Of a stretch of DNA of 42,737 nt, positions 24,917-41,333 are shown piece by piece. The notes beneath the pieces were generated by a model, which worked only from the letters and a program-made list of their open reading frames with translations, ran no database searches and had not been told where the DNA came from. The stretch's first letter is position 1. Each line of letters starts with the position of its first letter. The stretch is taken from assembly GCA_017645645.1 (NCBI GenBank), contig JAGCOB010000005.1, positions 1-42,737 of the forward strand, read 5' to 3'. Source of the DNA: Prevotella sp. (GTDB taxonomy: Bacteria; Bacteroidota; Bacteroidia; Bacteroidales; Bacteroidaceae). Position numbers and translations under genes: made by a program.

Positions 24917-26299
24917 ATGGAGATATTCAGTCATTTTTTCACAGAACTTAGTAGTCTGCTATGGGGATGGCCCATGATCATCCTATTGTTGGGCACTCAC
25001 CTCTACCTGACCGTCATCCTGCGTTTCCCTCAACGTCATATCTTCAAGGCCATCCGTCTTTCCATCAAACGCGACAAGGAGTCAACGGGGGATGTCTCCC
25101 AGTTTGCCTCTCTTTCCACGGCCCTTGCCGCCACCATCGGAACGGGAAATATCATTGGAGTGGCAACAGCCATTGCCTTAGGAGGTCCCGGTGCAGTGCT
25201 GTGGTGCTGGTTGACAGGTGTCCTCGGTATCTCCACCAAGTATGCGGAAGGACTCCTTGCCATCAAATACAGAAAGAAGAACGCCGACGGGAAGATGTCA
25301 GGCGGTCCTATGTATGCCTTGGAATACGGACTGGGCTGGAAATGGCTCGCCATCCTCTTTGCTATTTTCACCACCTGTGCCTCCTTCGGTCTTGGCAACA
25401 CCGTACAGGCTAATGCCATTGCCACACTGACCAAAGAGACCTATGAGGTATCACCCTATATCACTGGTATTGTAATCAGTGTGTTAGTAGGAGCCGTGGT
25501 ATTAGGCGGTATCAAGAGCATAGCCCGTGTCTGTTCGACACTGGTACCCTTCATGGCTTTCTTCTATGTGGCAGGCTGTATATATATTATAGGTGTAAAC
25601 ACTGCTTACGTGTGGCCTGCCATCAAACTGATCTGTGTCTCAGCCTTCAGTCCACATGCAGCAGGTGGAGGATTTATCGGGACGACGGTCATGATGGCGG
25701 CCCGTTACGGTATTGCCCGCGGTCTCTTTAGCAATGAGTCAGGTCTGGGCTCCGCACCTATCGTGGCAGCAGCGGCACAGACCCGTAACCCAGTCCGCCA
25801 AGCATTGGTGTCCAGTAGCGGTACTTTCTGGGACACCGTCGTTATCTGTGCCATGACAGGCATTGTCATTGTTAGCAGCGTCCTAGCCTATCCTGACATC
25901 AGCTTCGACGATGGTGCCGTCCTGACGAAAACCGCTTTCTCGAAGATTCCCGTCATAGGTACTCCCATCCTGACCTTCGGTTTACTCACTTTTGCTTTCT
26001 CCACCATCCTGGGATGGTTCTATTATGGGGAACGTGCCATAGAATACCTGAAAGGGAGAAAATGGGTTCTCGTCTATCGTATCATCTATATCGCTGCCGT
26101 CTTCCTGGGCAGTATCATACACCTGACGATTGTATGGGATTTTGCCGACTGCATGAATGCCCTGATGGCGATACCCAACTTGATGTCGCTGTTGGCATTG
26201 AGCGGTGTTTTAATCCATGAGACCCGCAAATACCTGTGGGAAGGGAATATAGACGAAAGCGAAGGGAATGATGCCGGAGCGGAAGAATCAACCTGCTAA
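24917..26299 (+). CDS. Sodium:alanine symporter family (AGCS) transporter
   Basis: A 460-residue inner-membrane symporter that takes up small neutral amino acids such as alanine or glycine with Na+. The family signature ALAATIGTGNIIGVATAIAL is present, followed by GGPGAVLWCWLTGVLG, the segment GKMSGGPMYALEYGLG, and NESGLGSAPIVAAAA. About ten membrane helices can be seen. It starts 6 bases after the DUF4230 pair and may be co-transcribed. Its 3' end overlaps the convergent trmO gene by 4 bases. Confidence 0.95.
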   Translation: MEIFSHFFTELSSLLWGWPMIILLLGTHLYLTVILRFPQRHIFKAIRLSIKRDKESTGDVSQFASLSTALAATIGTGNIIGVATAIALGGPGAVLWCWLTGVLGISTKYAEGLLAIKYRKKNADGKMSGGPMYALEYGLGWKWLAILFAIFTTCASFGLGNTVQANAIATLTKETYEVSPYITGIVISVLVGAVVLGGIKSIARVCSTLVPFMAFFYVAGCIYIIGVNTAYVWPAIKLICVSAFSPHAAGGGFIGTTVMMAARYGIARGLFSNESGLGSAPIVAAAAQTRNPVRQALVSSSGTFWDTVVICAMTGIVIVSSVLAYPDISFDDGAVLTKTAFSKIPVIGTPILTFGLLTFAFSTILGWFYYGERAIEYLKGRKWVLVYRIIYIAAVFLGSIIHLTIVWDFADCMNALMAIPNLMSLLALSGVLIHETRKYLWEGNIDESEGNDAGAEESTC

Positions 26300-26970
26300 G
26301 ACTTTCCGTCGGTAATTCCCACCACCGTCAGGACATCATCAGAAACCATGAAACGGATATCCTTGCCAGCAAAGGGCATACCGTATTCCCGTTGAGCATC
26401 ATCATGGTAATGGGGACGAGGATCCAAGGAAAGGACATCCTCAACCACCTGCCACTCTTCCTCGGAATACGCTGGACGAAGAGTATCTGGAACCTCTACC
26501 CGTAAACGCGACCACTGACGATGGTCCGTGAAACCGCCCCGTGCCTCAGGATGACTGTCTACATAGGGAAGATAGGGCTTGATGTCATAGATTGGCGTAC
26601 CATCCATCAAGTCTGCACCAGCCACCTCTATACTCGGGATCTCAGGATGGACAGCCATGATACGGACTGATGACAGGCCGAGGTTGTTGGGACGAAAAGG
26701 AGAACGGGTAGCCCAAACGCCTACCCGTTCATTTCCTCCTAACAATGGTGGACGTACCGTGGCATGTTTCTCTGCCTCCTCATGTGCTGAGAAACCCCAT
26801 ATCAGCCACAGATAGTCATAACTCTCCACACCGCGCAGTGCCTCAGCATGCGCATAATCCTTTGTGAAGATGATCTCCCCTTTCAGTTCTCCCACGATAC
26901 CGCTCTGTCGCGGTATTCCGAACTTCGAAGTGAACGGAGAGTGGAAAAAGGCTATCGGTTCTATCCTCAT
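26296..26970 (-). CDS. trmO: TrmO/TsaA-family tRNA methyltransferase
   Basis: A 224-residue member of the UPF0066/TsaA family, whose E. coli member TrmO methylates N6-threonylcarbamoyladenosine 37 of tRNA-Thr with SAM. Conserved segments are PRQSGIVGELKGEI, ESYDYLWLIWGF, VGVWATRSPFRPNNLGLSSV, and DGTPIYDIKPYLPYVD, together with the C-terminal domain region DPRPHYHDDAQREYGM. It overlaps the upstream secreted-protein gene by 4 bases (ATGA) and is the last gene of the FHA/kinase string; a functional link to signalling is not evident and it may simply share the transcript. Confidence 0.92.
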   Translation of the reverse strand: MRIEPIAFFHSPFTSKFGIPRQSGIVGELKGEIIFTKDYAHAEALRGVESYDYLWLIWGFSAHEEAEKHATVRPPLLGGNERVGVWATRSPFRPNNLGLSSVRIMAVHPEIPSIEVAGADLMDGTPIYDIKPYLPYVDSHPEARGGFTDHRQWSRLRVEVPDTLRPAYSEEEWQVVEDVLSLDPRPHYHDDAQREYGMPFAGKDIRFMVSDDVLTVVGITDGKS

Positions 26971-27965
26971 TTCACCTCACAGACATACACCTTCTTTCCT
27001 TGAGGGACGAAGAAGACATAATAGCCGGGCAACACTTGGTATTCTCTCCGCAGCGTATTCTTAACTGTCGTCGTCAGTACCGGTTTGATGGGAGAGATGA
27101 CCAGGTCCTGATAACTGAAGACCAGCGCCTCCTTTTTACCAGTGTCCTGCACCGTGGCACGGACGAGGGCTCCTTGTTGGTAGTCGGCCACGTCCTGTAC
27201 CTCTATCACCAGAGGTTCCTCTGGGGAGAAAGTGATAACGGGAGCCTGTAACGTCTCACGTTTAATCCTGAAGTCCGTATTCTTATCATTCGTGTACTTG
27301 GCAGCCATTGCCAGGTTCCTGTTGAAGAACACCTCATCATCACCCACGACGAACTCCTTGATAGGAGCATAGCTGTCATTGGGGATCCGTTGCATCTCCG
27401 TAATGGCGGCAATCTCCACTTTCTGCTGTTGACCGTCGGAGTCCTCTACACACAGGAAACTGGCTTCCTCGTCAGAGCCATAGTCCTGTAAGACGATGAC
27501 TCCCTGCCAAGTTCCATCCGGCGTGATCACCACATCCAGGAAAGGTGTCTGTTCGAAGAGGGACTGCTCCTGGTTAAGTTTCTCTTTCTTCTGACAGGCA
27601 ATCTCCTCATTCTTGATGATCTGTACGACACCATGGTCTTCCCTGAGATAGACCGACTTACCCAACAACTGCTTGACGATTTGTCCTTTGTAGATCTTCC
27701 CTCCCCTAGTCTCTATCACATCATCGATACCAGAGAGGTCGTCATTGGAACGCTGGGAGCGTTCTATTGCCAGGATATCCTCCATCGGATAGACGGTCTC
27801 CTGCTCTTCCTGAACGAAGACCAGATCCTTCCCCGGGTGCTGGACCGTGATACGTCCTTCCACCATACTGCCGTCCATCAGGATCAGCTTATCGTAGACC
27901 TTCGACTGTGCCATCGCAGTGGATGCCACCAGCCATAAAAGGAGCATCATGAATTTTCTCATCAT
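26967..27965 (-). CDS. Secreted protein of unknown function
   Basis: About 332 residues with a clear signal peptide (FMMLLLWLVASTAMAQ, cleaved after AMA). The mature part is mostly beta-like. Its beginning (KLILMDGSMVEGRITV, then KTRGGKIYKGQIV-like segments around residues 85-95) looks like two short repeats of a DGS/GG-x-GxI pattern that is common in small beta-barrel or Hfq/SH3-like folds, but I do not recognise the family. Start: two adjacent ATG codons (27963-27965 and 27960-27962); a GTG slightly upstream is less likely. It lies in the FHA/kinase string, 13 bases after the WG-repeat gene, and overlaps trmO by 4 bases. A periplasmic or surface partner of the signalling proteins is the simplest guess. 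Confidence 0.7.
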   Translation of the reverse strand: MMRKFMMLLLWLVASTAMAQSKVYDKLILMDGSMVEGRITVQHPGKDLVFVQEEQETVYPMEDILAIERSQRSNDDLSGIDDVIETRGGKIYKGQIVKQLLGKSVYLREDHGVVQIIKNEEIACQKKEKLNQEQSLFEQTPFLDVVITPDGTWQGVIVLQDYGSDEEASFLCVEDSDGQQQKVEIAAITEMQRIPNDSYAPIKEFVVGDDEVFFNRNLAMAAKYTNDKNTDFRIKRETLQAPVITFSPEEPLVIEVQDVADYQQGALVRATVQDTGKKEALVFSYQDLVISPIKPVLTTTVKNTLRREYQVLPGYYVFFVPQGKKVYVCEVK

Positions 27966-27978
27966 CACCACTTTTTAT

Positions 27979-29331
27979 TTACAATACAATAGCAGGATTC
28001 AACGTGACATTACATGAACTGGAGGCACCGCCGCCACGAGCAGTAATCGTACAACTCGTTTTCTTCGTTACCGGCACATTCACCGTCACGGAACCGCTCT
28101 TCTTGGCAGGAACCTGCAGGGAGCTCTTCTGTCCCGTACTGAGAGAGATATTGACGGTACGTGCAGAACTGCCGCGGTTGGTGACCTTGATAGCTACTGC
28201 ACAGATACCTTTCTTATTAGCTTTCACGGAAGCAGGCGCACTGACGGTGATACCGTCACTGGAACCTTTATTGACACTTGACTTATGGTCATCCACCCGA
28301 TTGAGACTACGCCAGAGAACCAGTTTCTCACAGGCCAGTTCATAGACGCGCTTGCCATTCTCGCCGGGGACATCGGCCTTCAGCGTACGTGCGGTACCGA
28401 CACCCTCCATCTCGAAATCTTTCCGGGAGGCATCATTGACGATACGCGTAAGCTTCGAGACCTTATTCTCCCATACGGAAGGAATCTCTGCCTCGGCAGT
28501 CAGTTTTCCACCAGCCTCTTTGACACTACACTCCACGGTGGCAGTATTGAACTTGACGACACCGTATAGATGATCTACCATAACGATGGCACAGTCGTCA
28601 GCCACCTTCTCAGCTTCTTCAAACTGAGTAGGAAGGAGGGTGGCACCGTCTTTCTTGTAGCCATGTCTCTTGTTTTCCGTAAACAGTTGATAGGAAGGAT
28701 CCGGAGTCGGTTCATAAGGCATGTTCACCTTACCGAGGCTCTCGGCATCAAAAGGAGCGACAACAGCCTCACTGGAACCAAGGACCTTGCCGTCCGGGTC
28801 TATCTCACTGATCTTAGCCTTACCCTTGGACAACTTGTCGAATCCGCCTTTCTCCTTCGATACCAGGGCGCGTCCGTTCCGGAAAGGACGCACTGCCGTA
28901 TAGTTGCAGGGGACAGCCAGTTTTCCGGAAGGAGTGAGGAAACCATATTTCCCCTTCTTGTTCGTCACCGCGCATCTGTCTTCTATAAAGAAAGGATAGT
29001 CACCGGCATACACCTCCTCCGTTACCGCCTCTCGTGTACCATTCTCCCTGATGATATACACGATACGGTATTTGTCCTTGTTCTTGGTCATGGCAAGGGC
29101 ATAGCCATTGGTGATGTTCGTGATGGAGTCCATCGCCAGCGACACCACCCATTTCTCATCCCCGTCACAGATACCCGTACTGGCATACGTCTTCACCTTG
29201 AAAAGGTTAGGGGCAAAATGGGTGATAGACTGATAGCTGGGAGTGATCGCCCAGTGTGCAGACTGTGCTTGCCCCACCATAGGCAGGGCAAGACACGTCA
29301 GCAATAGTATAATACTTTTCCTAATACTCAT
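27979..29331 (-). CDS. Secreted WG-repeat-like protein with C-terminal Ig-like domain
   Basis: A 450-residue exported protein. Signal peptide at residues 1-22 (IILLLTCLALPMVGQA). The middle has at least one recognisable WG-type repeat (GKYGFLTPSGKLAVPCNYT) and a second, poorer one (KRHGYKKDGATLLPTQFEEA). The last 90 residues form a beta-sandwich resembling CARDB/Ig-like adhesive modules (AVAIKVTNRGSSARTVNISL). Function unknown; WG repeats usually mediate binding. Its ATG shares one base with the stop of the FHA-protease gene, so translation is coupled. The export signal places it in the periplasm, where the protease domain of its neighbour is also predicted to lie. Confidence 0.72.
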   Translation of the reverse strand: MSIRKSIILLLTCLALPMVGQAQSAHWAITPSYQSITHFAPNLFKVKTYASTGICDGDEKWVVSLAMDSITNITNGYALAMTKNKDKYRIVYIIRENGTREAVTEEVYAGDYPFFIEDRCAVTNKKGKYGFLTPSGKLAVPCNYTAVRPFRNGRALVSKEKGGFDKLSKGKAKISEIDPDGKVLGSSEAVVAPFDAESLGKVNMPYEPTPDPSYQLFTENKRHGYKKDGATLLPTQFEEAEKVADDCAIVMVDHLYGVVKFNTATVECSVKEAGGKLTAEAEIPSVWENKVSKLTRIVNDASRKDFEMEGVGTARTLKADVPGENGKRVYELACEKLVLWRSLNRVDDHKSSVNKGSSDGITVSAPASVKANKKGICAVAIKVTNRGSSARTVNISLSTGQKSSLQVPAKKSGSVTVNVPVTKKTSCTITARGGGASSSCNVTLNPAIVL

Positions 29332-30977
29332 TATTGAACAGCTTCTTCGTCATAGATCTTCTTCAGGAACTTCGACTGTACGGCCTTGGTATAACCACCG
29401 GCAATACTCGTTCCTCCCCATAATACGCCAACCAACTGACCAGCCTCGTTGAATACGGGAGAGCCACTGCTTCCACCTACTGACTGCTCCTGGAACTCAA
29501 AGTCATACTTGCTGGGCTCCTTGCTGCACTTGGTCTCCTTGATGCTGGGCTCCAGGGACTTCGCTCTCTTGTCGAGTGCCCAAGTAAGACCGGCAGGATA
29601 ACCAATGGTGAAGAGCTTGTCCTTCAGAGGAACAAGACGCTCTGTGTTGAAGTTGCTCGGTTCGAATACCAGTTCCACGTCCTCCGGTGTCTTCTTGTCG
29701 TTCAACTGCAGGAGGGCGACATCAATCTCCTTGTCCTTGGAGTCTGCCACCACGTCACAACGCTGGAACTCATCCAGGTGTGTGTAGTTCTTACCGGCAT
29801 AACCCACCATGATATAGTCAATGGCACCCGTGATGTTATAACGGGAACGGCTCAGGCGGTCGATGATCTTATTCAGCTCACCCTGCCAGTTGGGGTATTT
29901 ACCGATATGGTCGTTGATGGCCTTGAACAAGGCAGTCTGTGCGAATGCCTGCATGGTAGGCATCGAGAAGTCCCTACCCTTGTTGCTCGTCGTCAAGCGC
30001 TCGTCACCGGTCTGCATGAACATACAGGTACGGCGCATCAGCTCAATACGATATTCTATACTCTCACGGATACGGTTGTCCTCCTCTGCGGAGCGATACT
30101 CCCAAGGTACGGCAACATGACGATTGGTACCCATATAGCCCTTGCGGTCGAGGAAGAATGCCGTGGCACTATAAGGCTGCTGGGCAGCGATATCCTCAAT
30201 CTTACCGTTCCAGGTATCAGGCATGGGGTTATCCTCGAACTCAGCGATATAGTGGTACTGTGCACCGACATACACCACCGTGTTGCGGTATTTCTCCGGA
30301 GAGACACTAGATGGAGTGGAAGGAGCCACATAGGTGGAGTCGTTGGCAACAGCCACAGGTTCTGCCTCTCCCTTGGGCCAGAGGGCGAAGATAATACCTA
30401 TCAGGGCGAGCACACCCACGGCACCGGCGATACCATAGATCAGACCCATATTGGTCTTTGGCATCACACCGGCAATCTGATCGGTCACATCCTCTGTTCC
30501 GCAGACGATGTTATCACCTTTCTTGATACGCACGTCCTTGTTGGCGGCCACCTTCACACCATTCACCATAGTACCGTTACGGCTGCCATTGTCATGGATA
30601 TAGGTCTTGCCGTCCTTGCCGATTCTGACAGACGCATGGAAGCGGCTGACTGTCTGGCTGTTCAGGATAATCTCATTACGGTAGTTGGAACCGATGTTAT
30701 ACACTGACTTATAATTCGTCAGTTTCTCAGCCACAGGGACTTTTGCCCATACCAACGGAGTATCGGCGATGGTGATACGGTCGCCGCGCTGTACGTTCAC
30801 CTCCTTGCCAGGCTCGATACGCTTGTTGCCGACCATGGTTCCGTTCTTACTGTTCTTGTCTTCCAGGATGATCTGTCCGTCGTCAAGAATCGTCATCTCA
30901 GCATGCAGGCTGCTGACGTAGTTACTGTCTAACACGATGTCGCAAGATTGCGAGCTACCAATTTTAATAATCTTCAT
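29331..30977 (-). CDS. FHA-FHA-transmembrane-trypsin-like protease
   Basis: A 548-residue fusion. Residues 1-75 and about 88-165 are two FHA phosphothreonine-binding domains (first: SSLHAE with SKNGTMV; second: SRFHAS with SRNGTMVNG). Residues 177-200 form one membrane helix. Residues about 230-545 are a chymotrypsin-fold serine protease with a complete triad by position: histidine 287 in GTNRHV, aspartate 419 in KEIDVALL, serine 504 in GGSSGSPVFN. A long helical insertion (residues about 295-400) separates histidine and aspartate. With FHA domains cytoplasmic, the protease would face the periplasm: a cytoplasmic phospho-signal could control extracytoplasmic proteolysis. There is no PDZ domain, unlike HtrA. 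Confidence 0.9.
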   Translation of the reverse strand: MKIIKIGSSQSCDIVLDSNYVSSLHAEMTILDDGQIILEDKNSKNGTMVGNKRIEPGKEVNVQRGDRITIADTPLVWAKVPVAEKLTNYKSVYNIGSNYRNEIILNSQTVSRFHASVRIGKDGKTYIHDNGSRNGTMVNGVKVAANKDVRIKKGDNIVCGTEDVTDQIAGVMPKTNMGLIYGIAGAVGVLALIGIIFALWPKGEAEPVAVANDSTYVAPSTPSSVSPEKYRNTVVYVGAQYHYIAEFEDNPMPDTWNGKIEDIAAQQPYSATAFFLDRKGYMGTNRHVAVPWEYRSAEEDNRIRESIEYRIELMRRTCMFMQTGDERLTTSNKGRDFSMPTMQAFAQTALFKAINDHIGKYPNWQGELNKIIDRLSRSRYNITGAIDYIMVGYAGKNYTHLDEFQRCDVVADSKDKEIDVALLQLNDKKTPEDVELVFEPSNFNTERLVPLKDKLFTIGYPAGLTWALDKRAKSLEPSIKETKCSKEPSKYDFEFQEQSVGGSSGSPVFNEAGQLVGVLWGGTSIAGGYTKAVQSKFLKKIYDEEAVQ

Positions 30978-30993
30978 ATGCTTAAGTTTTTAG

Positions 30994-31692
30994 TTATATT
31001 ACGACTGTTTTGTTCTTATTATTGCCAGCAGGTTGTTTGTCATTAGAAGGAGCCTTCTGCTGTTCTTTCGCCTTCTGTTCCTTGGCTTTCTGCTCCTTGG
31101 CCTTCTGCTGACGGGCGCGCTCCTCTGCCTCACGTCTCTTCTTGCTGGCACGGGCAGCGCCATAGACATCGATGACCTTGTCTTGCTGGTCAACGGCAGC
31201 ACCTTCCGAGCCGGAAGGGGAAGTAGTCTCAGGGGCAGTCTCCTCTGGGGCAGCCTCTTCCTGTTGGTCCATGGGCTGCTCCTGCGGTTTCTCACTCTCT
31301 ACAGGTTTCACCGTCTCTGTCTTCTGGACAGCAGGGGCAGGTTGTTCAGGTTCACTGCTGAAGACCTTCACCAAGAGGCTGATGACGATCAGCAGGACGA
31401 CCAGCGCACCCACCACCAGGGCACCTATCTTATAGTATTTCAAGGGGTCAGGAACCTTGGACCAGTCGAGCTGACGCACATCGGCGAAGTTGACCACGTC
31501 CTTACGGGTAACAGGGAATGGAATGTTGGGGCGCAGACGGACACCATTGACGGAGGTACCGTTCTTGCTCATGTCGACAATCTCCATGCCCCCGAAAGTA
31601 GGAATCTTGATAATCGCATGGCGGCGACTCATCATCTCGTCGTCAATGGTGATGGTACATCCCTCACCCCGACCTATTGTTACTGTCTTCAT
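30994..31692 (-). CDS. FHA-domain membrane protein with charged repeat tail
   Basis: A 232-residue protein. Residues 1-80 form an FHA domain (TIGRGEGCTITI, MMSRRHAII, SKNGTSVNGVRL). A membrane helix follows at about 88-111 (IGALVVGALVVLLIVISLLV). The rest is low-complexity: proline/glutamate/glutamine-rich, then lysine/glutamate-rich with three tandem KAKEQ units, ending in NKTVVI. It probably binds a phosphothreonine on one of the kinases or on a substrate and passes the signal across the membrane; the tail would lie in the periplasm. It lies 16 bases before the FHA-protease gene and 7 bases after the PP2C gene. Confidence 0.85.
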   Translation of the reverse strand: MKTVTIGRGEGCTITIDDEMMSRRHAIIKIPTFGGMEIVDMSKNGTSVNGVRLRPNIPFPVTRKDVVNFADVRQLDWSKVPDPLKYYKIGALVVGALVVLLIVISLLVKVFSSEPEQPAPAVQKTETVKPVESEKPQEQPMDQQEEAAPEETAPETTSPSGSEGAAVDQQDKVIDVYGAARASKKRREAEERARQQKAKEQKAKEQKAKEQQKAPSNDKQPAGNNKNKTVVI

Positions 31693-31699
31693 AGGCTAG

Positions 31700-33100
31700 T
31701 TATTTTAGTGATTGGAGTTTCTTGATCAGTATGTTGTAATGGCCCTTGCTGTTATCGGGATTGTCGGCGGCAATCTTGTCAGCCAGACGTGCCCGCACCT
31801 CATCATAGGCTGCCTTGTTCTTCGCATCCTTTTCGGCAAGGGTCTTCAACTGTTCCGAAACGGTCGAGCGCAACTGCTTACGCTGGGCATTCTCCTGCAT
31901 GTCCTTGATCTTGGTAAGCTGGGAGATGATACCGCTGCGTGACTTCTGGATGGCATCAGCGGCGGCCTGTGCCTGCTTGGCGGCATTCTGTGCCTGTTCG
32001 GCAGCAGCCTGTGCCTCCTTGGCTTTCTGCTCTGCCTCACTCTTGGCCTTCTCGGCGGCACTCTCCTTCTCCTTGGCGACCTTCATGGTAGCATCTGCGG
32101 CCTCCTGTTTGGAAGATGCCACATTTCCCCATAAGGCACTGATACTGTCCTCGAGAGCCCTGATACGCTGTCCCCTTGCGTCGTTCTCTACCAACAGGGA
32201 CTCCAGTTCCTCACTATTGGCAGCAGGCTTCTTCTGGCAAATCAACACGATGTTCAAAATCACACTAAGCAGGCAAATGGCTGCCAGTGCCAGCAGGATA
32301 TGCAATGTTTTCTTACTCATTTTCTCTTTCAGTAATGAATCTTGTTTGGTTTCTAATAATGCGATGGTCAGGTTGTCGTGCTTGTTGCCATTGGCACGTC
32401 CGATCTCATCGACTTCTATCACGGTAGAGTCTACGGCACCCGATAGCGATGCCGTCTTAGCCACCCGTCTGATCAGGTCTTTCTCTGGCATGGAACCCCA
32501 GATACCGTCGGTACATAACATGAAACGGTCGCCTTTGTCATAGGGGCGTTCCGTGACCTCGGCAAGGTTGATCAGCTTACTGCCTAAGGCCTTGGTGATG
32601 ATATTCGACTGGGACGACAGTCTTGCCTGCTCCTCTGTCAGGGTACCGTTACGTACCAGTTCTCCCACCATCGAGTGATCAGCGGTACGGAAGATCTTCT
32701 TGCCGCGACGGAACTGGTAGATACGACTGTCACCCACATGTCCCAGGATGGCGGACTGTTTGTTGATCAGTACCACGGTAGCCGTCGAACCCATGCCGCG
32801 AAGGGCGGGAGTCTCCGCCGTCTTGGCAAGGATGCACTGATGACCATACTCGATGGCATTGGCAACCATCTCCGTACGGGGCATCTCCTGAGGGGCGTTG
32901 ACCACATACTCCACAATCTTCTGGACGGCAATCGTAGAGGCAAGCCTGCCTCCGGGACCACCTCCCATTCCATCACAGACCACGGCAATCAACCCTTTGT
33001 CGGTATCCAGGAAGCCACACGAGTCCTGGTTCTCAGGTCTCCCTCCCTGGCGGGTGTCCCAGTAGCCTGCGAAAGGCATGGCTGTCTTAATTGCATTCAT
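31700..33100 (-). CDS. PP2C-family protein phosphatase, membrane-anchored
   Basis: A 466-residue protein. Residues about 8-250 are a metal-dependent PP2C phosphatase with motifs RPENQDSC, VCDGMGGGPGG, GSTATVVLI, GHVGDSRIYQFR, CTDGIWGSM and KHDNLT; the metal-binding aspartates are present. It should remove phosphate from serine/threonine, opposing the two adjacent kinases. One membrane helix (about 267-289, LHILLALAAICLLSVILNIVLI) is followed by a long alanine/lysine/glutamate-rich coiled coil (about 300-400) that would lie outside the membrane. Cytoplasmic phosphatase plus extracytoplasmic coiled coil suggests a sensor-controlled phosphatase. It lies between the kinase and FHA genes. Confidence 0.92.
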   Translation of the reverse strand: MNAIKTAMPFAGYWDTRQGGRPENQDSCGFLDTDKGLIAVVCDGMGGGPGGRLASTIAVQKIVEYVVNAPQEMPRTEMVANAIEYGHQCILAKTAETPALRGMGSTATVVLINKQSAILGHVGDSRIYQFRRGKKIFRTADHSMVGELVRNGTLTEEQARLSSQSNIITKALGSKLINLAEVTERPYDKGDRFMLCTDGIWGSMPEKDLIRRVAKTASLSGAVDSTVIEVDEIGRANGNKHDNLTIALLETKQDSLLKEKMSKKTLHILLALAAICLLSVILNIVLICQKKPAANSEELESLLVENDARGQRIRALEDSISALWGNVASSKQEAADATMKVAKEKESAAEKAKSEAEQKAKEAQAAAEQAQNAAKQAQAAADAIQKSRSGIISQLTKIKDMQENAQRKQLRSTVSEQLKTLAEKDAKNKAAYDEVRARLADKIAADNPDNSKGHYNILIKKLQSLK

Positions 33101-33105
33101 AATGA

Positions 33106-34056
33106 TTATTTCTTAAATATATCTCCTATACCAGGTACACCACTGTCCTGTACCTTTTTAAGGAATCTGTCAAACTTCGAATAATTACGGGGAGGCAGTG
33201 CCTCCTTCAGTGCCATCTTCATCGCATTGGCATTCTGATAGCGGTCAGACGGATAGATGGCTGTTGCCTTGCGTGTCACCTCAAAGACGGAGTCGGAGAT
33301 GCCGGGAACCTTCGGGAGTACCATGCCATGGTGCAGTGCCTTTGCCTCTGCAACGGTAGTCGCCGAGAAGGGGTTCTGCTTGGTAATCAACTCATACAGG
33401 GTGATGCCTGCCTCATAGATATCCGTCGCCGAAGTGAGCTGCGGCTTGGTAGCCACATCAGAGAACTGTTCCGGGGCAGCATACTTGGGCGTTCCCATCA
33501 TGCCCGATGTCGAACTGTTGATCGTCTCCGTCACGTCAGAGATACCCAGGTCCATCAACCGCACGTTACGACCCTGTTCCATCATGATGTTCGAGGGTTT
33601 GATATCCATGTGGATGATACCCTTGGAATGGATATAGGCAAGGGCATCCAGCACTGGCAGGAAGAGTTCACAGATACGGTGCTCCGCATTGGGAAGGGAA
33701 CGGACATGTCCGTTGATGAACGTGTCGATGTTCTCGCCCTTCACGAAACGGCTGATGATGAAGATGGGACCCTGATGGGGAGCCACCTCACAACAGCCCA
33801 GCATCTCCACCAGGTTAGGATGACTGAACATCAGGTCTGCCTCCTGATGGGCACGACGGCGCACCTCAGGATTATTGGCATAGCGGTCCACCACCCTCTT
33901 GACGGCAATGGCCTCGTGGGTCTGGCAGTCCTCGCCGAGATACACGACACCCATCGCCCCTGCCCCTAACGGCGGCCGGGTTTCATCATACTGATACCAA
34001 CGTCCGTAGGCATTCAGGTAGATGATATTCCCTTGTTTTTTTACCATTCCTGGCAT
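33106..34056 (-). CDS. Ser/Thr protein kinase, soluble, non-RD
   Basis: A 316-residue Hanks-type kinase without a membrane helix. Present: glycine loop GAGAMGVVYLGE, VAIK-type lysine in IAVKRV, the catalytic loop IIHMDIKPSNIM with the catalytic aspartate and lysine, the metal motif as DLG (LMDLGISD) in place of DFG, and AAPEQ for APE. The arginine of HRD is methionine here, so activation-loop phosphorylation is probably not needed in the usual way. The start could be the first ATG or that three codons later. It lies 18 bases after the membrane kinase and 5 before the phosphatase. Confidence 0.92.
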   Translation of the reverse strand: MPGMVKKQGNIIYLNAYGRWYQYDETRPPLGAGAMGVVYLGEDCQTHEAIAVKRVVDRYANNPEVRRRAHQEADLMFSHPNLVEMLGCCEVAPHQGPIFIISRFVKGENIDTFINGHVRSLPNAEHRICELFLPVLDALAYIHSKGIIHMDIKPSNIMMEQGRNVRLMDLGISDVTETINSSTSGMMGTPKYAAPEQFSDVATKPQLTSATDIYEAGITLYELITKQNPFSATTVAEAKALHHGMVLPKVPGISDSVFEVTRKATAIYPSDRYQNANAMKMALKEALPPRNYSKFDRFLKKVQDSGVPGIGDIFKK

Positions 34057-34074
34057 GGTCTGTCTTTTCTATTC

Positions 34075-35700
34075 CTATTCGGCACCAGCCAGGCTGCGGG
34101 CCTGGTCGATACGTGTCTGGAACAGTTTCACATATTCCTGATTTCCACCCAGACGGGCGAACTTCACTCCTTCCTCCAGCAACTTGGCAGCCTTGGCGAT
34201 GTCCTGCACATTGGCATCACCAGTGCGGACCTCTCCTGCCAGATAGTCGGTGGCAAGCTCGAAGACGGCCTTATAGCTCTGTGGATTGGCCTTATAGGCT
34301 GCCTCCGCATACTGATGGGCTTTCTTGGCATCACGCTTGACGGCTTTCTCCGTCAACGACCGTAACTCCTTGACTTCGTCGGAACTGATCTCTGAGTCTT
34401 CCGGCTGTGTCAGGGCAGCCAACAGGGCAATGGCATCAGCCGCATCCTTCTCACTGCCATGCTTGGCGGCAATCTCGTTGAGGATGTCGATACCCTCCTG
34501 GATAGTGGCGGCATTCGACAACTTGTCCTTGGCTTTATTGAACTCGGCAACCACGTCATAGGCAGGCTCTACCGCCTCTGTCTGCTGTGGTGCCGCCTCT
34601 TCCTTCGGGGAGTCAGAGCCTCCGCTCACGGCGATACCGATGATGATACCCAACACCACCACGGCAGCGGCAATGATACCGATGAGCTTGGTCTTGTTGC
34701 TCTTCACGTCGGCGATACTTGCCACGACCTGTCCTGTACTAGTGGCAGAGGGGACGGCATCTGCCTTCGACAGATGCTCCAAGTCGACACGCATCTCAGT
34801 AGCTGATTGATAACGGTCTGCCTGTTTCTTGGCAGTCGCCTTGGCGACGATGTTACGCACTGCCTTGTAGGGAATCATCTTCAGGGGGATCTTCTCATTC
34901 AACTGTTTCTTGATGAGTTCCGCCATCGTTCCCTCGAAGGGCATCGTTCCCGTGATAAACTGGAAGAGCATGATACCCACGGCATAGAGGTCCGTCGTCT
35001 TGTCCTGGTTATGGACATCACCCAGCACCAGTTCCGGAGCGGCGTATGCTGCCTTTCCGATAAACTGTCCCGTACTGGTCAACTGCTGATCCTGCGTATT
35101 GAGGTTATCCAACTGCTTGGCGATACCGAAGTCGATGATCTTCACCTTACGGTCCGTGGTGATCATGATATTACTCGGATCCAGGTCACGATGGATATAG
35201 CCCTTGTCATGCAGTGCCATCAGTCCCGACAGGATGTTCTTCACGATGAAGACGGCAAAGCCGAAGCGGTCGTTCTGGTATTTACTATAGAGTTCCTGGG
35301 CAAAAGGCACTTCATTGCCGTACTTGTCCGTCGTCTTACCATTCAACAAGTCGAAGAGCATCACACCCTGTAGCAGTTCACTGACGACATGGTAGCGCTT
35401 GATGGGACGGGCACTATCAGGATTCTCCACCACCTCGATGAAGCCGAACATCTCCACCAGGTTCTCGTTATGGATCTGGATGGATGCCTCACGCTTGGCA
35501 CGCTCGATGGCATGGGCTGGCAGGTCTTCAAAGAGAAACTTGATGGCGACATCCATACGAACGCCATTCGTCTCATTGACCCTGACACCTCTCAACACCT
35601 GACCCATGCCGCCCTCGCCTAACGAAGGCAGTTCCGGGTCTACCTCATAGTGTATGTGCTTCCTTTTCTCTTCTTCTCCTTGTATATATATTAAAGGCAT
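34075..35700 (-). CDS. Ser/Thr protein kinase with membrane helix and repeat-like C-terminus
   Basis: A 541-residue Hanks-type kinase. Residues about 20-300 form the kinase: GEGGMGQVLRG, DVAIKFLF, YIHRDLDPSNIMI, IIDFGIAKQL and AYAAPELVLG. The catalytic loop has HRDLDPSN, with aspartate where most kinases have lysine (HRDLKPxN), a substitution at a residue that normally contacts the gamma-phosphate. A membrane helix (about 342-364) leads to an extracytoplasmic alpha-helical region of alanine-rich, TPR- or Sel1-like character (SYKAVFELATDYLAGEVRTG). Receptor-type kinase in this cassette. It follows the free FHA gene by 21 bases. Confidence 0.92.
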   Translation of the reverse strand: MPLIYIQGEEEKRKHIHYEVDPELPSLGEGGMGQVLRGVRVNETNGVRMDVAIKFLFEDLPAHAIERAKREASIQIHNENLVEMFGFIEVVENPDSARPIKRYHVVSELLQGVMLFDLLNGKTTDKYGNEVPFAQELYSKYQNDRFGFAVFIVKNILSGLMALHDKGYIHRDLDPSNIMITTDRKVKIIDFGIAKQLDNLNTQDQQLTSTGQFIGKAAYAAPELVLGDVHNQDKTTDLYAVGIMLFQFITGTMPFEGTMAELIKKQLNEKIPLKMIPYKAVRNIVAKATAKKQADRYQSATEMRVDLEHLSKADAVPSATSTGQVVASIADVKSNKTKLIGIIAAAVVVLGIIIGIAVSGGSDSPKEEAAPQQTEAVEPAYDVVAEFNKAKDKLSNAATIQEGIDILNEIAAKHGSEKDAADAIALLAALTQPEDSEISSDEVKELRSLTEKAVKRDAKKAHQYAEAAYKANPQSYKAVFELATDYLAGEVRTGDANVQDIAKAAKLLEEGVKFARLGGNQEYVKLFQTRIDQARSLAGAE

Positions 35701-35721
35701 TGTCTTGATGAGAGATTAAGA

Positions 35722-36426
35722 TTACATCATTTCCGTTCCACCAGGCTCGTCAAAGCCAGCACCACTCAGGTCTACCGTACCCGTATCCACGTTACGATGA
35801 TCAGCACTGTAAGGACGGAAATTATTCTGTGTGGCGTCATCACCAAAACCGCCACGTGGCTGGAAGGGTGCAGGATTCTCTGCAACTTCCTTGTCCTCTA
35901 CGAACTCCTCTGCTACGGATAGTCCGTATTCCTCTGCGTCAATCAACAGGAGCAGCAACTTGTAGTTGGCACCCACGGTGATGATGTCGTTGGTCTTGCA
36001 GGAATGGTTCTCATAGTCCAGCTCCTCATCATTCAGATACATACCCGTCTTCGAGCCGGTATCACGAATACTGGCAATCAGCTTATGTGTACTCTTCATC
36101 TGCTTGATGCTCAGCGTGGCATGCTTGCCGGATACGGACATCTCCTTCAGGCAGATGTCGTTGTCTGCTGAACGACCGATGGTATTGGTACCCAGATGGA
36201 GGGGCCAGTACTCACCGATTCCCTTACGGGAGATGGAATACAGGAAACCGACAACGGGCGTGTTGGGTTTTGCCTGCGGACTTGCTGCCGATGGAGCTGG
36301 GGCACTGCCTGGCGTATAGTCGTTCATGCCAGGGATATAAGTCTCACTACCTGTACGTTGACCACCATGTGAACGTGCATAAGGATTGTTGTTACCTCCT
36401 TTTACGAATGTCTCATCTTGTTTCAT
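35722..36426 (-). CDS. FHA-domain protein, soluble
   Basis: A 234-residue protein, first gene of the kinase string. The N-terminal 55 residues are disordered and threonine-containing (QDETFVKGG), a plausible kinase target. The FHA domain (about 62-165) contains LGTNTIGRSADNDICL, VSGKHATLSI and TGSKTGMYLND. The C-terminal 65 residues are low-complexity and acidic. No membrane helix. The layout recalls small FHA regulators phosphorylated in their tails, such as mycobacterial GarA, but that comparison is by architecture only. I start at the ATG directly before KQDETF; upstream codons do not look coding. Confidence 0.85.
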   Translation of the reverse strand: MKQDETFVKGGNNNPYARSHGGQRTGSETYIPGMNDYTPGSAPAPSAASPQAKPNTPVVGFLYSISRKGIGEYWPLHLGTNTIGRSADNDICLKEMSVSGKHATLSIKQMKSTHKLIASIRDTGSKTGMYLNDEELDYENHSCKTNDIITVGANYKLLLLLIDAEEYGLSVAEEFVEDKEVAENPAPFQPRGGFGDDATQNNFRPYSADHRNVDTGTVDLSGAGFDEPGGTEMM

Positions 36427-36466: not shown

Positions 36467-36474
36467 CAAAGATA
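36467..36474 (-). promoter_or_regulatory. Possible proximal -7 box for the FHA/kinase string
   Basis: The minus strand reads TATCTTTG, about 40 bases before the first FHA ATG. No TTTG at the -33 spacing. Confidence 0.45.
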
Positions 36475-37065: not shown

Positions 37066-38982
37066 CTACTTCAGTACGACTTTCTTACCATTCACAATGT
37101 AGAGACCCTTCGTCGGATAGAGTACACGACGACCATTGAGGTCGTAGTAGATATCATCCTTCTTGCTTCTTACATCTTCAATCTCACTAATTCCTGTCAC
37201 GCCACCGCCGAAGTCAAGAGAGAGTTCCATCCCACGAGAAGTAGCTGGATCAGCTTCCAGATGCAGATAAGCCTTACCTACAGGTACTTTACCAGAACTG
37301 GCATGATAGAACAAACCATCCTTCAGGACATAGTCATATTTGCCGTCACCACCAATAGTGGTCTTACCATCACCTGCCACCAAGAGATTAGATGCAGGAG
37401 CAGAGGATGTTGCAATAAAAGGAACATTATAAGTAGTACTTGCAGTACCCTCCAATACCAATGGAGTACCAGCAGGAACCGTAGTCACCTCAGCCAACGT
37501 CACAGCAGTAGCACTGGCGGCTGTAGCCACGTAAGCCTTGATGCCAAGACCCGTAAAGTCCACAGCATTTTTAGTAACATAGGTAGAATACTCTTTTGCA
37601 GGAGTAATTGTTTCATACAATGACACTGCTTCATCATAGAAGAGAGCCATCTCATAGAGGCGTGAGTTCGTTGCTGAACCATCTGCCTGGAGAGTGATCA
37701 TATATTCCTTCGAATTATCTAAGTCCAACGTCATTGTACCTATATCGTTACCACTTCCATAAGATTCATATAATGTCGTTGTTGCAGCAGGGGTTGTTCC
37801 AGAGTATTCAAATGCTGCCAACACAACTTTTTGTGTACTGTGTCTGGCAGATACAAGAGCCTGTACCTTTGAAACACCCTTTATGCGGAAAGAGTAAACT
37901 GCAGTAGTAGATTTTGTAGTAGCAGCTCTGTCTGTTTCCATATTATAGGCACTTGAGCCCTTGAACACACCTGTTGCATCCCATGACTGACCAGTAGAAC
38001 CACCACTATAAACACCTACCCATGTTTGTTCTGCAACCGACTGATATGCTCCGACAACAGAGTATGTGATATAATTACTACTTCCATCATTGCCGAATAT
38101 AGCATGTCCATAATCAGCATGCCATGTTCCATTTAACATGGTAGAAGCAGCATCTGCATCACTGAGGTCAAGTGCATCCGTTGGTAAAACGGCATTTTCA
38201 TTCCTTGCCATAGATGCTATTACGTTGACAGCAAATACTACACTGCCTGCAAGATATGTTGCGTCTGCAGCCTGTGAAACAGTAACAGTAGTAGAGCCTG
38301 CTTTCTTAGCCGTTATCAAACCATCTGAAGAAACTGTTGCGATAGTTGGATCTTCAGAAGTATATGTAAAAGCGCCCGTACTTGATGTCGTAAAGTCTGT
38401 TCCTAGAGTTAAGGTATATGTATCATCTACAACCAAAGTCTTTGTATCTTTTCCTTCGACAATTGCTATATCTGAAGCTGTTTTACTGGACTCACGAGTG
38501 ATAGTGAGAGCTGTAATAAACAGAGTTGTTCCTCCCGAATAACGTGTCAGGCGAAGAACGTTTGTTCCATTGCCGGCAGCAGTCACTGTAAGGGTGTTCA
38601 CTGTGGCAGGAGAACTCGAGCCAGCACTTGAACTACCTGCTTGCAATGTCAATGCAGATGTGAACACTTCACCTGTTATTGTTCCAAAGAACAGTCCTGG
38701 ATTAACTTCTTTACTCGTGTCACTTGCATAATAAGTAATACTTATTTTGTCACCTGTTTGGAATGTCCCAGAATTAAGTGTTAACTGCACATACTTTTCT
38801 GCTGCCGCATTGTCAGTACTTGATATTTTATACTTATTGGTATCCAAAGTACCCTTTGCAGTATATACTGCTGTTGCGCCGGTTAATGTTCCGCCACTAA
38901 ATGACAGAATGGTTTCATCTGCTCCCCACGCCGTCCCAATACTTATCAGGGCAAGCGTTAGTAAAGTAAAGATTTTTTTCAT
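37066..38982 (-). CDS. Secreted Big2-like surface protein, tandem copy B
   Basis: A 638-residue exported protein. Signal peptide FTLLTLALISIGTAWG at residues 4-19. Then a beta-rich N-terminal module, a bacterial Ig-like (Big2) domain around residues 190-265 (TYTSEDPTIATVSSDGLITA, KKAGSTTVTVSQ), a module shared with copy A that contains LNGTWHADYGHAIFGNDGSS, and a C-terminal sorting-type domain ending YDLNGRRVLYPTKGLY and VNGKKVVLK, as in proteins sent out by the type IX system in Prevotella. Likely a cell-surface adhesin or binding protein. I start at the ATG at 38980-38982 because the signal peptide begins there. Confidence 0.85.
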   Translation of the reverse strand: MKKIFTLLTLALISIGTAWGADETILSFSGGTLTGATAVYTAKGTLDTNKYKISSTDNAAAEKYVQLTLNSGTFQTGDKISITYYASDTSKEVNPGLFFGTITGEVFTSALTLQAGSSSAGSSSPATVNTLTVTAAGNGTNVLRLTRYSGGTTLFITALTITRESSKTASDIAIVEGKDTKTLVVDDTYTLTLGTDFTTSSTGAFTYTSEDPTIATVSSDGLITAKKAGSTTVTVSQAADATYLAGSVVFAVNVIASMARNENAVLPTDALDLSDADAASTMLNGTWHADYGHAIFGNDGSSNYITYSVVGAYQSVAEQTWVGVYSGGSTGQSWDATGVFKGSSAYNMETDRAATTKSTTAVYSFRIKGVSKVQALVSARHSTQKVVLAAFEYSGTTPAATTTLYESYGSGNDIGTMTLDLDNSKEYMITLQADGSATNSRLYEMALFYDEAVSLYETITPAKEYSTYVTKNAVDFTGLGIKAYVATAASATAVTLAEVTTVPAGTPLVLEGTASTTYNVPFIATSSAPASNLLVAGDGKTTIGGDGKYDYVLKDGLFYHASSGKVPVGKAYLHLEADPATSRGMELSLDFGGGVTGISEIEDVRSKKDDIYYDLNGRRVLYPTKGLYIVNGKKVVLK

Positions 38983-39025
38983 TTGTTCATTTATTATTGT
39001 TAATAGTTTATTGTTTCTCATATAA

Positions 39026-39064
39026 TGGAGTGTGAGCAGCCCCAATGAAGCAACTCACACTCCA
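39026..39064. other. 11-bp perfect hairpin between peptide A and Big2 copy B
   Basis: TGGAGTGTGAG (39026-39036) pairs perfectly with CTCACACTCCA (39054-39064) around a 17-base loop. It starts 23 bases after the peptide A stop and ends 44 bases before the Big2-B ATG, with no T run, so it may be a processing or stability element more than a terminator. Confidence 0.6.
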
Positions 39065-39263: not shown

Positions 39264-41333
39264 CTACTTCAGTACGACCTTTTTACCATTCACGATATAC
39301 AATCCCTTCGTCGGATAGAGTACACGACGACCATTGAGGTCATAGTAGACATTGTCCTCAGTACCTACCTTGATATTCTTGATACCTGTTACTTCGCCGT
39401 CAATAGAAAGACCACGAGCACTAGAGCCAGGTTTTGGTCCGTCAGCAAGTGTAAGATATGCTTTGTTGGCACCCAAATTAGCATCAGTGCTGCCAATCCA
39501 CTGGAACTCAGCAGTGCCACCATTGTTCATCAATACATAGTTAACATCACCACCTGTACCAGCTGTAATCGTACTGGCTGTTACATTAGGCTTCATCTTG
39601 TTAGTTGCTGAGTAGTCTGTTCCACTAGCCACAACAGGAACGACATAGGACTTACCCGCAGTACCCTTAACCAGCAGACCAGTATTTTCAGCTACTGTAC
39701 CCGTAATTTTCTCTTTCACTACAGCAGTTCCGGCACCATTAGCTCCAGTTACTTGATAAGCCTCAATTTCAAGACCTGTAAAGTCAAGAGCTTGATCCGT
39801 GCTGTACGTTGCATAACCAGTGGCACCGATAGGAACATTTTCCAATCCAACAGACTCATCATAGAAGAGAGCCATCTCGTAAAGACGGGAATCATTTGCA
39901 CTAGTAAGTGCTAAAACATATTCCTTCGCAGCATCAAGGTTTAGTGTCAGTGTCTCCTTTACGCTATTAGTAGATAATGATTCATATACAATGGTTGTTG
40001 AAGCAGGAGTTCCTGCGGTTACTTCATATGCCGACATATATATCTTTTTAGAAGTTCCTCTAGTATCAGCAAGTAACTGTGCCTTTTTAACTCCCTTTAC
40101 ACGGAAGGAAAGTACTTTATTTGAACCCAAATTTGCTCTCTTTGCTGTATTCATATTATATGCAGTACTTCCTACAAAGACACCTGTAGCATCCCAAGAC
40201 TCATTACTAGAACCCAAACCGTAATTTCCTATCCATGCCTGTTTTGTGTCTCCAGCAGATGAGTAAGCTGCAACCAGAGGATAGACCATATAATTATTAC
40301 TGCCGTCATTGCCAAATAATGGGTGACCATAATTTTCATCCCATGAACCATTAAGTAAAGCAGATGCTGCAGAAGCATCTGTTAAATCAAGAGTACTGGA
40401 TGGTGTAACCATATGGGAATCCTTGGTCTGTGCAGTTATGACATTGACAGTGATAGAAGTTGTGGTGGTTTTATAGGTAGCGTCTGCTGTTGCTGTAACG
40501 GTAGCTTTAATTGTAGTTGTTCCTGCTGCTACACCAGTAACAACACCAGATGAATTAACTGTAGCGATGGCTTCGTCGTTTGAAGAATATGTTACAGAAG
40601 AGTATTTTGCCGACTCGCTTGAGATATCTGTCAAAATGCTGAAAGCAGTTGATAATGTACCACCAACTGCAATATTCTGATTATCAGGAGTAAAAGAAAG
40701 TGTCAGAGGATCACGTGTGTCTGCCACTGCATATGTTCCTGAAAGAACAACATCGCGGAAGCCAACACTTTTATTATCATCTTTTGAACCAAAATGAACA
40801 TAGAAATAAAGTGTCTCACCAGCAGCATATGATTCAGATAAGAAAGAGTTAAGTGTTAAGGTCGTTGGGTTCTGATTACTGCTATCTCCTTTACCCAATT
40901 GGTTTGTACCATTAGCTGTTTGAACTGTTGCAAAAATTTGTGCGCCCTGATTACTTGTTCCAATACCAATGGCTTGCAAAGTTACGCTTGTAGGAGTAAA
41001 GGTATAACCTTCTTTTACTGTAACAGCAAAAGTGAGATAATCATCCTTGGAATATACTCCTGCTGTACCCGTAGCTGTTGTTGGTGTATAATAACCATAG
41101 TAATGGGTTCCTCCTGTAGTATAATTTTTAGAAATAGGTCCTTCTTTGATATCAGACGATGCAGTAATATTTGCGACTGTTAGAATATCATCCACACTTG
41201 CAGTACCAGCAGTAGATGTTACAGATGCTGATGAGCCATCAGGCAACCATGTTACAGTAATGGCTTCATCTGCCCACGTTTTGCCCCCCCCAATAAACAT
41301 AAGGAGCGTTAATAAAGTAAAGATTTTTTTCAT
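39264..41333 (-). CDS. Secreted Big2-like surface protein, tandem copy A
   Basis: A 689-residue exported protein, paralogue of copy B. Signal peptide FTLLTLLMFIGGGKTWA; the GGG is encoded in a run of eight G on the sense strand (41284-41291). An N-terminal beta-rich module is followed by a Big2 domain (about 215-300; YSSNDEAIATVNSSGVVTGV, VAAGTTTIKATVTA), the shared LNGSWDENYGHPLFGNDGSN module, and the same C-terminal sorting-type domain as copy B, ending VNGKKVVLK. Threonine and alanine are very abundant. It has a good promoter. Surface display through type IX secretion is inferred from the C terminus. Confidence 0.85.
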   Translation of the reverse strand: MKKIFTLLTLLMFIGGGKTWADEAITVTWLPDGSSASVTSTAGTASVDDILTVANITASSDIKEGPISKNYTTGGTHYYGYYTPTTATGTAGVYSKDDYLTFAVTVKEGYTFTPTSVTLQAIGIGTSNQGAQIFATVQTANGTNQLGKGDSSNQNPTTLTLNSFLSESYAAGETLYFYVHFGSKDDNKSVGFRDVVLSGTYAVADTRDPLTLSFTPDNQNIAVGGTLSTAFSILTDISSESAKYSSVTYSSNDEAIATVNSSGVVTGVAAGTTTIKATVTATADATYKTTTTSITVNVITAQTKDSHMVTPSSTLDLTDASAASALLNGSWDENYGHPLFGNDGSNNYMVYPLVAAYSSAGDTKQAWIGNYGLGSSNESWDATGVFVGSTAYNMNTAKRANLGSNKVLSFRVKGVKKAQLLADTRGTSKKIYMSAYEVTAGTPASTTIVYESLSTNSVKETLTLNLDAAKEYVLALTSANDSRLYEMALFYDESVGLENVPIGATGYATYSTDQALDFTGLEIEAYQVTGANGAGTAVVKEKITGTVAENTGLLVKGTAGKSYVVPVVASGTDYSATNKMKPNVTASTITAGTGGDVNYVLMNNGGTAEFQWIGSTDANLGANKAYLTLADGPKPGSSARGLSIDGEVTGIKNIKVGTEDNVYYDLNGRRVLYPTKGLYIVNGKKVVLK
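41284..41291. repeat. Homopolymer of eight C in the Big2-A signal peptide
   Basis: CCCCCCCC on the plus strand, GGGGGGGG in the sense orientation, within codons 14-16 of the Big2-A gene. Loss or gain of one base would shift the frame inside the signal peptide. Confidence 0.9.

Follow-up and report, generated by a model that had tools for sequence, protein, structure and literature searches.

A conserved kinase, phosphatase and FHA-protease gene cassette in Bacteroidota and its possible role as a phosphothreonine switch across the inner membrane

The 42,737-base stretch of DNA analyzed here (hereafter the window) spans the full length of contig C4 in a 2.09-Mb Prevotella sp. genome (29 contigs, 64% complete), and carries on its minus strand eight contiguous open reading frames (ORFs), running from 36426 to 26967 in the transcription order H, G, F, E, D, C, B, A and followed by trmO (Table 1). 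An earlier note had described these genes as a set comprising two Hanks-type kinases, a PP2C phosphatase, three FHA proteins, one of them fused to a protease, and a WG-repeat protein; the ORF positions bear out the contiguous arrangement before trmO, and the Pfam matches bear out the domains, with four FHA domains in total (one in H, one in D and two in C). The locus raises the question of whether these genes work as one unit and, if so, where a phosphothreonine signal generated by that unit would lead. As detailed below, the eight genes are a real, portable and conserved unit, and we propose, with confidence that falls a little short of even, that they constitute a self-contained phosphothreonine switch by which a cytosolic signal crosses the inner membrane and reaches a tethered protease.

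Conservation and mobility of the cassette

Relatives of the locus were identified by searching with protein C alone, leaving the other genes free to differ, in several overlapping draws of genomes. Twelve of the 201 genomes in a first family draw presented a match at 1e-10, and seven of them, the window genome included, harbor the cassette. Searches with an alignment of C at 1e-30 yielded 39 of 299 genomes in a genus draw (17 of the main type, own genome included, plus one C fragment at a contig end), 10 of 393 in an order draw (main type in the window genome G000 and in G013, G470, G435, G310 and G545) and 11 of 395 in a phylum draw, eight of the latter in one distant family. At 1e-60, an alignment matched 16 of 399 genomes in a family draw, sparsely spanning 9 of 30 genera. 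The counts given below refer to 37 main-type loci (the window, L037, L024-L029, L127-L130, L190-L205 and L281-L289). Partial C relatives (G033, G026, G038, G071 contig C174, G210, G351 and G518), 21 genus genomes with E-values from 5e-45 to 8e-31, the C fragment in G782, the cousin layouts described below and loci L211-L214 stand outside this count; of 80 loci kept in one search, seven were annotated (L037, L038, L040, L042, L043, L047 and L069).

The order F-E-D-C is present in 36 of the 37 loci, the exception (L205) ending inside C at a contig end, and H lies upstream in 33, the contig stopping before H in the other four (L026, L128, L205 and L285). This constancy sustains the proposal, made in the earlier note, that the genes act as one functional unit. 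Among the same loci G is found in 33, A in 34 and B in 28; neither A, missing from three, nor B, missing from nine, is universal, one of these loci (L026) stopping at a contig end. The part of the cassette past C is its variable part, containing B, A, an outer-membrane barrel X (16/37), a protein Y (15/37) or an S41 peptidase (6/37) and, in some cassettes, additional PP2C and kinase copies. Cousin layouts with the order C-H-E, and with other kinases before or after, were identified in L030, L035, L040 and L042, and also in the distant family, where five members (L206-L210) show them. The C protein of Prevotella sp. RGIG7810, from water buffalo, is 90% identical to that of the window, and outside the closest relative C identity ranges from 31 to 49% (12 proteins aligned). 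Dozens of genomes repeat the gene order despite such low identity of C, which is more than chance would preserve. All eight genes are carried in the same order by Phocaeicola massiliensis, a named carrier that makes the cassette open to experiment.

The genomic site of the cassette is not fixed. Only 4 of the 37 loci adjoin trmO. The window flank beside trmO is shared, together with the cassette, by L190, L191 and L192, and L037 has both without the intervening trmO. Among 18 trmO loci fetched (from 16 non-carrier genomes and two carriers), L238, L239 and L244 keep the window neighbors with no cassette there, and in one of these three genomes, G855, the cassette lies on another contig. The unit has therefore been gained or lost at this site, and resides at several. 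The sole plasmid record matched at 1e-15 was the circular OY726067.1 of P. massiliensis (L255, 35582-65162). It was rejected as evidence of plasmid carriage since it shares 99.4% identity across 13.6 kb with a 3.1-Mb G080 contig and is hence probably chromosomal DNA filed under a plasmid label. A search of C against phage records at 1e-10 returned no matches.

Catalytic residues, FHA pockets and predicted topology

The catalytic residues of the putative writers, eraser and protease named in the earlier note are intact. In F, the catalytic Asp, the Asn and the DFG Asp are present in 26/26 aligned rows and the Lys in 25/26 (one gap), the catalytic residues of G are kept in 30/30 rows, and the metal-site Asp residues of E in 37/37. 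The His-Asp-Ser triad of C is conserved in 37/37 rows and in all nine proteins fetched later (46/46, cousin layouts included), and the closest solved sequences to this protease are glutamyl endopeptidases (E=2.2e-5). The phosphothreonine pocket of D (Arg, Ser, His and Asn) is complete in 27/27 rows. Both FHA domains of C keep the Ser and the His in 35/35 rows, and the Asn in 34/35 and 35/35, respectively. The pocket of H is degenerate, with Ser and His kept, Arg absent from 12 of 25 proteins and Asn from 9 of 25.

Membrane helices were called with a Kyte-Doolittle window and not with a trained predictor. Four proteins show one strong hydrophobic helix each, at residues 340-358 in G, 268-286 in E, 89-107 in D and 179-197 in C, in agreement with the four single-helix proteins noted earlier; a borderline peak of 1.61 also falls inside the kinase domain of G. 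Relatives of F are mixed in this respect, with a helix above threshold in 21 of 32 rows and none in the window protein, and the helix count of F was not used. The FHA domains and the protease of C lie on opposite sides of its helix, as expected for the extracytoplasmic protease that had been predicted. An early hydrophobic segment exceeds the threshold in 7 of 22 B proteins and 14 of 25 A proteins; in the window, the start of B appears export-like by its hydrophobicity profile, and that of A by eye.

Four conserved threonines in the tails of H

The tails of the small FHA protein H vary in length and sequence among relatives, save for four threonines. In the first set of H proteins these were found in 25/25 (T1), 24/25 (T2), 25/25 (T3) and 25/25 (T4) sequences, and in eight H proteins fetched later in 8/8, 8/8, 7/8 and 8/8, respectively. 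Of the 91 tail columns with two gaps at most, seven are identical in at least 24 of the 25 proteins, and they correspond to the four threonines, two glycines and the start methionine. A peptide motif composed post hoc, from the alignment already viewed, matches 22 of the 25 H proteins and no member of the other cassette families, and has a single occurrence among 283,342 residues from other ORFs. A narrower DNA pattern for the same motif, run on 32 genomes (16 carriers and 16 genomes without the cassette), produced 11 matches. Eight of the 11 fall in H of six carriers, with H missed in the other ten carriers (the window genome included), and three lie elsewhere, against 2 matches of the reversed pattern. 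Of these three, those in G062 and G545 are in unrelated ORFs, and there is no motif-bearing ORF at the place matched in G000. Given so few stray matches, no second motif-bearing protein family was seen in these 32 genomes with this narrow pattern. Judged by these residues, H would be a sharper candidate than A or B for the phosphorylated partner of the kinases.

A possible inside-out phosphothreonine switch

The proposed switch would operate as follows. G, whose outer part may sense a signal, and F would phosphorylate the tails of H; the membrane FHA proteins D and C would dock on phosphorylated H; and docking would cluster copies of C and thereby free or turn on its protease domain beyond the inner membrane. 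The PP2C phosphatase E would strip the phosphates and reset the switch, and B, A and, in relatives, the outer-membrane barrel, protein Y and the S41 peptidase may be envelope partners or substrates. The scaffold role assigned to H in this scheme stems from the persistence of its four threonines in tails that are otherwise variable. The gating of the protease by phosphorylation, put forward in the earlier note, is something we infer, as are phosphorylation, docking, clustering and activation individually, and the inside-out direction represents a choice between two readings. More tentatively, and as a possibility rather than an expectation, the cassette may be a novel, horizontally spread module whose single soluble FHA scaffold, once phosphorylated multivalently, gathers a membrane FHA-protease and an FHA-linker into clusters and thereby switches on proteolysis across the inner membrane, with the module serving an envelope response when alone and heading a type VI secretion system (T6SS) operon in one clade. 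The known outputs of bacterial phosphothreonine signaling lie mostly in transcription, metabolism, growth of the cell wall and secretion; if the proposal is true, relay of a signal across a membrane to a protease by a conserved cassette would constitute a distinct output.

Several observations weigh against this proposal. G has an Asp in place of the Hanks catalytic-loop Lys in 30/30 rows, as part of a family motif, HRD[IL]DP[ST]N, that is found in 31/31 family members, and F reads HMD instead of HRD in 8 of 26 rows, the window protein among them; with such unusual catalytic loops, either kinase could be weak. The Arg site of the first FHA domain of C holds Arg in 23 of 35 rows and Ser in the remaining 12, including the window protein, and that of the second holds Arg in only 16 of 35. 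The T4 match in the divergent locus L284 rests on a poor C-terminal alignment. Lastly, the protease of C might be an input rather than an output.

The last point leads to the reverse direction, in which the protease, or the outer part of G, senses envelope damage or a ligand, the kinases respond and phosphorylated H acts inside the cell. G does have a part beyond its helix, as receptor kinases do, and the T6SS phosphorylation pathway offers an example of outside-in signaling in the available portions of PMC4348357 and PMC10482370; moreover, the window cassette encodes no DNA-binding output gene detectable with Pfam. The triad of C, intact in every protein aligned, nevertheless fits an output enzyme at least as well as a sensor, and no gene for a cytosolic effector is constant across cassettes, so that we regard the outside-in direction as unlikely.

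Association with type VI secretion

Another reading holds that the cassette is a T6SS control unit, the Bacteroidota counterpart of PpkA-PppA-Fha, and that its target in the window genome is a T6SS encoded in the third of the genome that this 64% complete assembly lacks. In favor of this reading, in 4 of the 37 loci, namely L027 (G196), L028 (G168), L029 (G013) and L127 (G470), the cassette heads a T6SS operon, with ClpV, TssB and TssC coming next after it (TssC of L027, Pfam E=7.9e-132); the G470 contig ends inside TssC. The T6SS stretch of G196 further encodes, according to Pfam, Hcp/TssD, VgrG and a DUF4280 protein that weakly matches Ntox46, along with a kinase-FHA fusion, a further kinase and a WG protein. 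In G013 and G168 the corresponding kinases also lie at the far end, and the same stretch contains a VgrG spike domain. On a 5.7-kb contig of G041 (L156), an A-like gene leads into ClpV-TssB-TssC. TssC is also more frequent with the cassette than without it in the family draw (4/7 versus 11/194, p=6e-4, G041 being counted as lacking the cassette).

The wider survey, however, does not tie the cassette to the T6SS. TssC was identified in 9 of 28 main-type carriers searched (G080, G196, G168, G013, G470, G689, G643, G825 and G790), adjoining the cassette in four, and was absent from the other 19, which include the window genome and seven carriers that are at least 98% complete (G062, G435, G545, G758, G855, G853 and G879); the result for G062 and G193 assumes that two family draws took identical genomes. 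Phage_base_V (VgrG) was likewise absent from G435, G545, G310, G588, G193 and G000, and was present, distant from the cassette, in G062 and G080. The nine carriers found last have no ClpV, TssB or TssC within the stretches fetched, and five other T6SS loci (L153, L154, L155, L157 and L158) contain no cassette genes within the 11-20 kb fetched. Once the three linked genomes are removed, the family comparison becomes 1/4 versus 11/194 (p=0.22), and the genus comparison, with counts taken from different draws, is 4/17 versus 4/12 (p=0.68); the family-level association is hence driven by the T6SS-linked clade. In the C tree the T6SS-linked copies form one clade (100/99), separate from the C of the window; the PP2C tree places this clade otherwise, and the tree program flagged a possible meeting of long branches. 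A dedicated T6SS control role is accordingly judged to be quite unlikely. The cassette works like the T6SS threonine phosphorylation pathway without being tied to the T6SS, and, as the same switch heads a T6SS operon in one clade, the module looks like a control unit for different envelope outputs. If so, its T6SS-linked form would provide the Bacteroidota T6SS with a phospho-control.

Comparison with described systems

Like the cassette, the T6SS threonine phosphorylation pathway (PpkA, PppA, Fha1 and TagQRST) co-encodes a membrane kinase, a PP2C phosphatase and an FHA protein, and the window proteins include all three in one cluster by Pfam. The cassette differs in its added protease and FHA linker, both anchored in the membrane, in its frequent separation from the T6SS described above and in having no TagH family member, TIGR03354 matching only C, at 51.1 bits versus a cut-off of 120.25. 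The earlier note had listed a close match to a known secretion-control cluster among the findings that would speak against it, and the likeness found is a partial one, seen in the four loci that head a T6SS operon and contradicted by the 19 carriers without TssC.

The phage-borne KKP system (PfkA, PfkB and PfpC) also has two kinases adjacent to one PP2C phosphatase. An anti-phage or toxin-antitoxin-like kinase module of this kind would agree with that gene content (as given in the available portion of PMC11341870) and with the patchy distribution and changing sites of the cassette, but is highly improbable, given that neither F nor G has the fusion to a cold-shock or FHA domain that the same portion of that source uses as a filter, that the cassette adds FHA proteins and a protease, that C matches no phage record at 1e-10, that ten flanking proteins from six loci had no match in PADLOC, and that a protease beyond the inner membrane would be an odd weapon against a cytosolic phage. 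The same PADLOC and phage-record results leave the earlier suggestion of an invader-responsive system without backing. PADLOC families are matched by F (36 families) and G (34), e.g. PD-T4-6 and MAD6, in what look like generic kinase-domain matches, and the matches of cassette proteins in general, which seem to reflect kinase, phosphatase or protease domains held in common, were rejected as a defense signal.

The remaining comparisons concern individual proteins. The kinases and the phosphatase fall below the NCBIfam cut-offs for a PASTA kinase/Stp1 pair (PknB_PASTA, 172 and 153 versus 450 bits; Stp1, 174.5 versus 230). OdhI/GarA-type FHA proteins carry a phosphorylated N-terminal threonine. 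H shares with them its small size, its solubility and the presence of threonines in a flexible tail, but scores 25 bits against an OdhI cut-off of 200, has four sites distributed over both ends and often has a degenerate pocket. With regard to C, an FHA-FHA-Tryp architecture was reported in 2008 for NP_811686.1 of Bacteroides thetaiotaomicron, in one sentence and a table row of the available portion of PMC2605481; as in C, two FHA domains lie N-terminal to a trypsin-like domain, the likeness being one of described architecture alone, and that portion describes no cassette, partners or mechanism. A search of the open-access literature through titles and the starts of abstracts, with subscription papers mostly outside its scope, returned no account of the cassette. 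The words "kinase" and "FHA" do not occur in the available portions of the T6SS papers PMC10781749 and PMC4714493, nor does "Bacteroid" in that of the T6SS regulation review PMC10482370. As far as these searches go, the cassette is undescribed.

Gene layout, expression signals and neighboring features

The spacings from H to trmO are, in order, 21, 18, 5, 7, 16, -1, 16 and -4 bases. The gaps are thus within the 24 bases stated in the earlier note, with a maximum of 21, but the "several" overlaps it reported reduce to two junctions, C/B (1 base) and A/trmO (4 bases). The start of H was placed at 36426 because its homologs begin with MSQ or MKQ, and the most likely start of A is not the GTG at 27971 but the ATG at 27962, which is followed by an export signal as judged by eye. 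The TAnnTTTG box, which we take to be the Bacteroidota -7 box, has a match upstream of H at TATCTTTG; this match is the sole promoter evidence, and no -33 box match was found there.

Table 1. Position of cassette genes and associated features in the window.
Feature	Description	Position	Strand	Length	Support or remark
TAnnTTTG match	TATCTTTG	36467..36474	-		ends 40 bases before H
H	soluble FHA protein	35722..36426	-	234 aa	Pfam FHA
H tail threonine codons	T6, T29, T217, T231	36409-36411, 36340-36342, 35776-35778, 35734-35736	-		codons verified
G	Hanks-type kinase, one membrane helix, C-terminal part across membrane	34075..35700	-	541 aa	Pkinase 3.3e-34
F	Hanks-type kinase, no helix in window protein	33106..34056	-	316 aa	Pkinase 2e-39
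E	PP2C phosphatase, one membrane helix, long C-terminal tail	31700..33100	-	466 aa	PP2C_2 2.1e-17
D	FHA domain, membrane helix, charged repeat-rich tail	30994..31692	-	232 aa	FHA 9.9e-15
C	two FHA domains, membrane helix, trypsin-like (glutamyl-endopeptidase-like) protease	29331..30977	-	548 aa	FHA x2, Trypsin_2
B	WG-repeat protein, N-terminal export-like segment	27979..29331	-	450 aa	WG_beta_rep 1.2e-13
A	predicted secreted protein	26967..27962	-		no Pfam matches
trmO	downstream neighbor, outside cassette	26296..26970	-		TrmO_N and TrmO_C; 4-base overlap with A

Upstream of the likely cassette promoter, positions 36607-36581 can form a terminator-like 12-pair hairpin with a T-rich tail, of which shuffled sequence yields about as many. 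Further upstream, 37066-39045 and 39264-41333 lie next to each other and encode two exported proteins (659 and 689 aa) that share a C-terminal stretch (ending in ...YYDLNGRRVLYPTKGLYIVNGKKVVLK).

Two further phospho-signaling loci were observed. One is in the window genome itself, on contig C8 at approximately 78.3-86.9 kb (L036, 8322-16891), where genes for a PP2C protein (248 aa), an FHA protein (188 aa), a multi-AAA-domain protein (1105 aa), a kinase (982 aa) and a zinc-ribbon protein (316 aa) lie side by side. The other, in a member of the Prevotellaceae with a termite-type sample name, Nc350 (L069, 483-14524), is a larger cluster in which an H-like FHA gene is accompanied by genes for RHS-repeat proteins, PP2C, kinases, FHA proteins and a protein that combines an FHA domain with a weak match to VWA.

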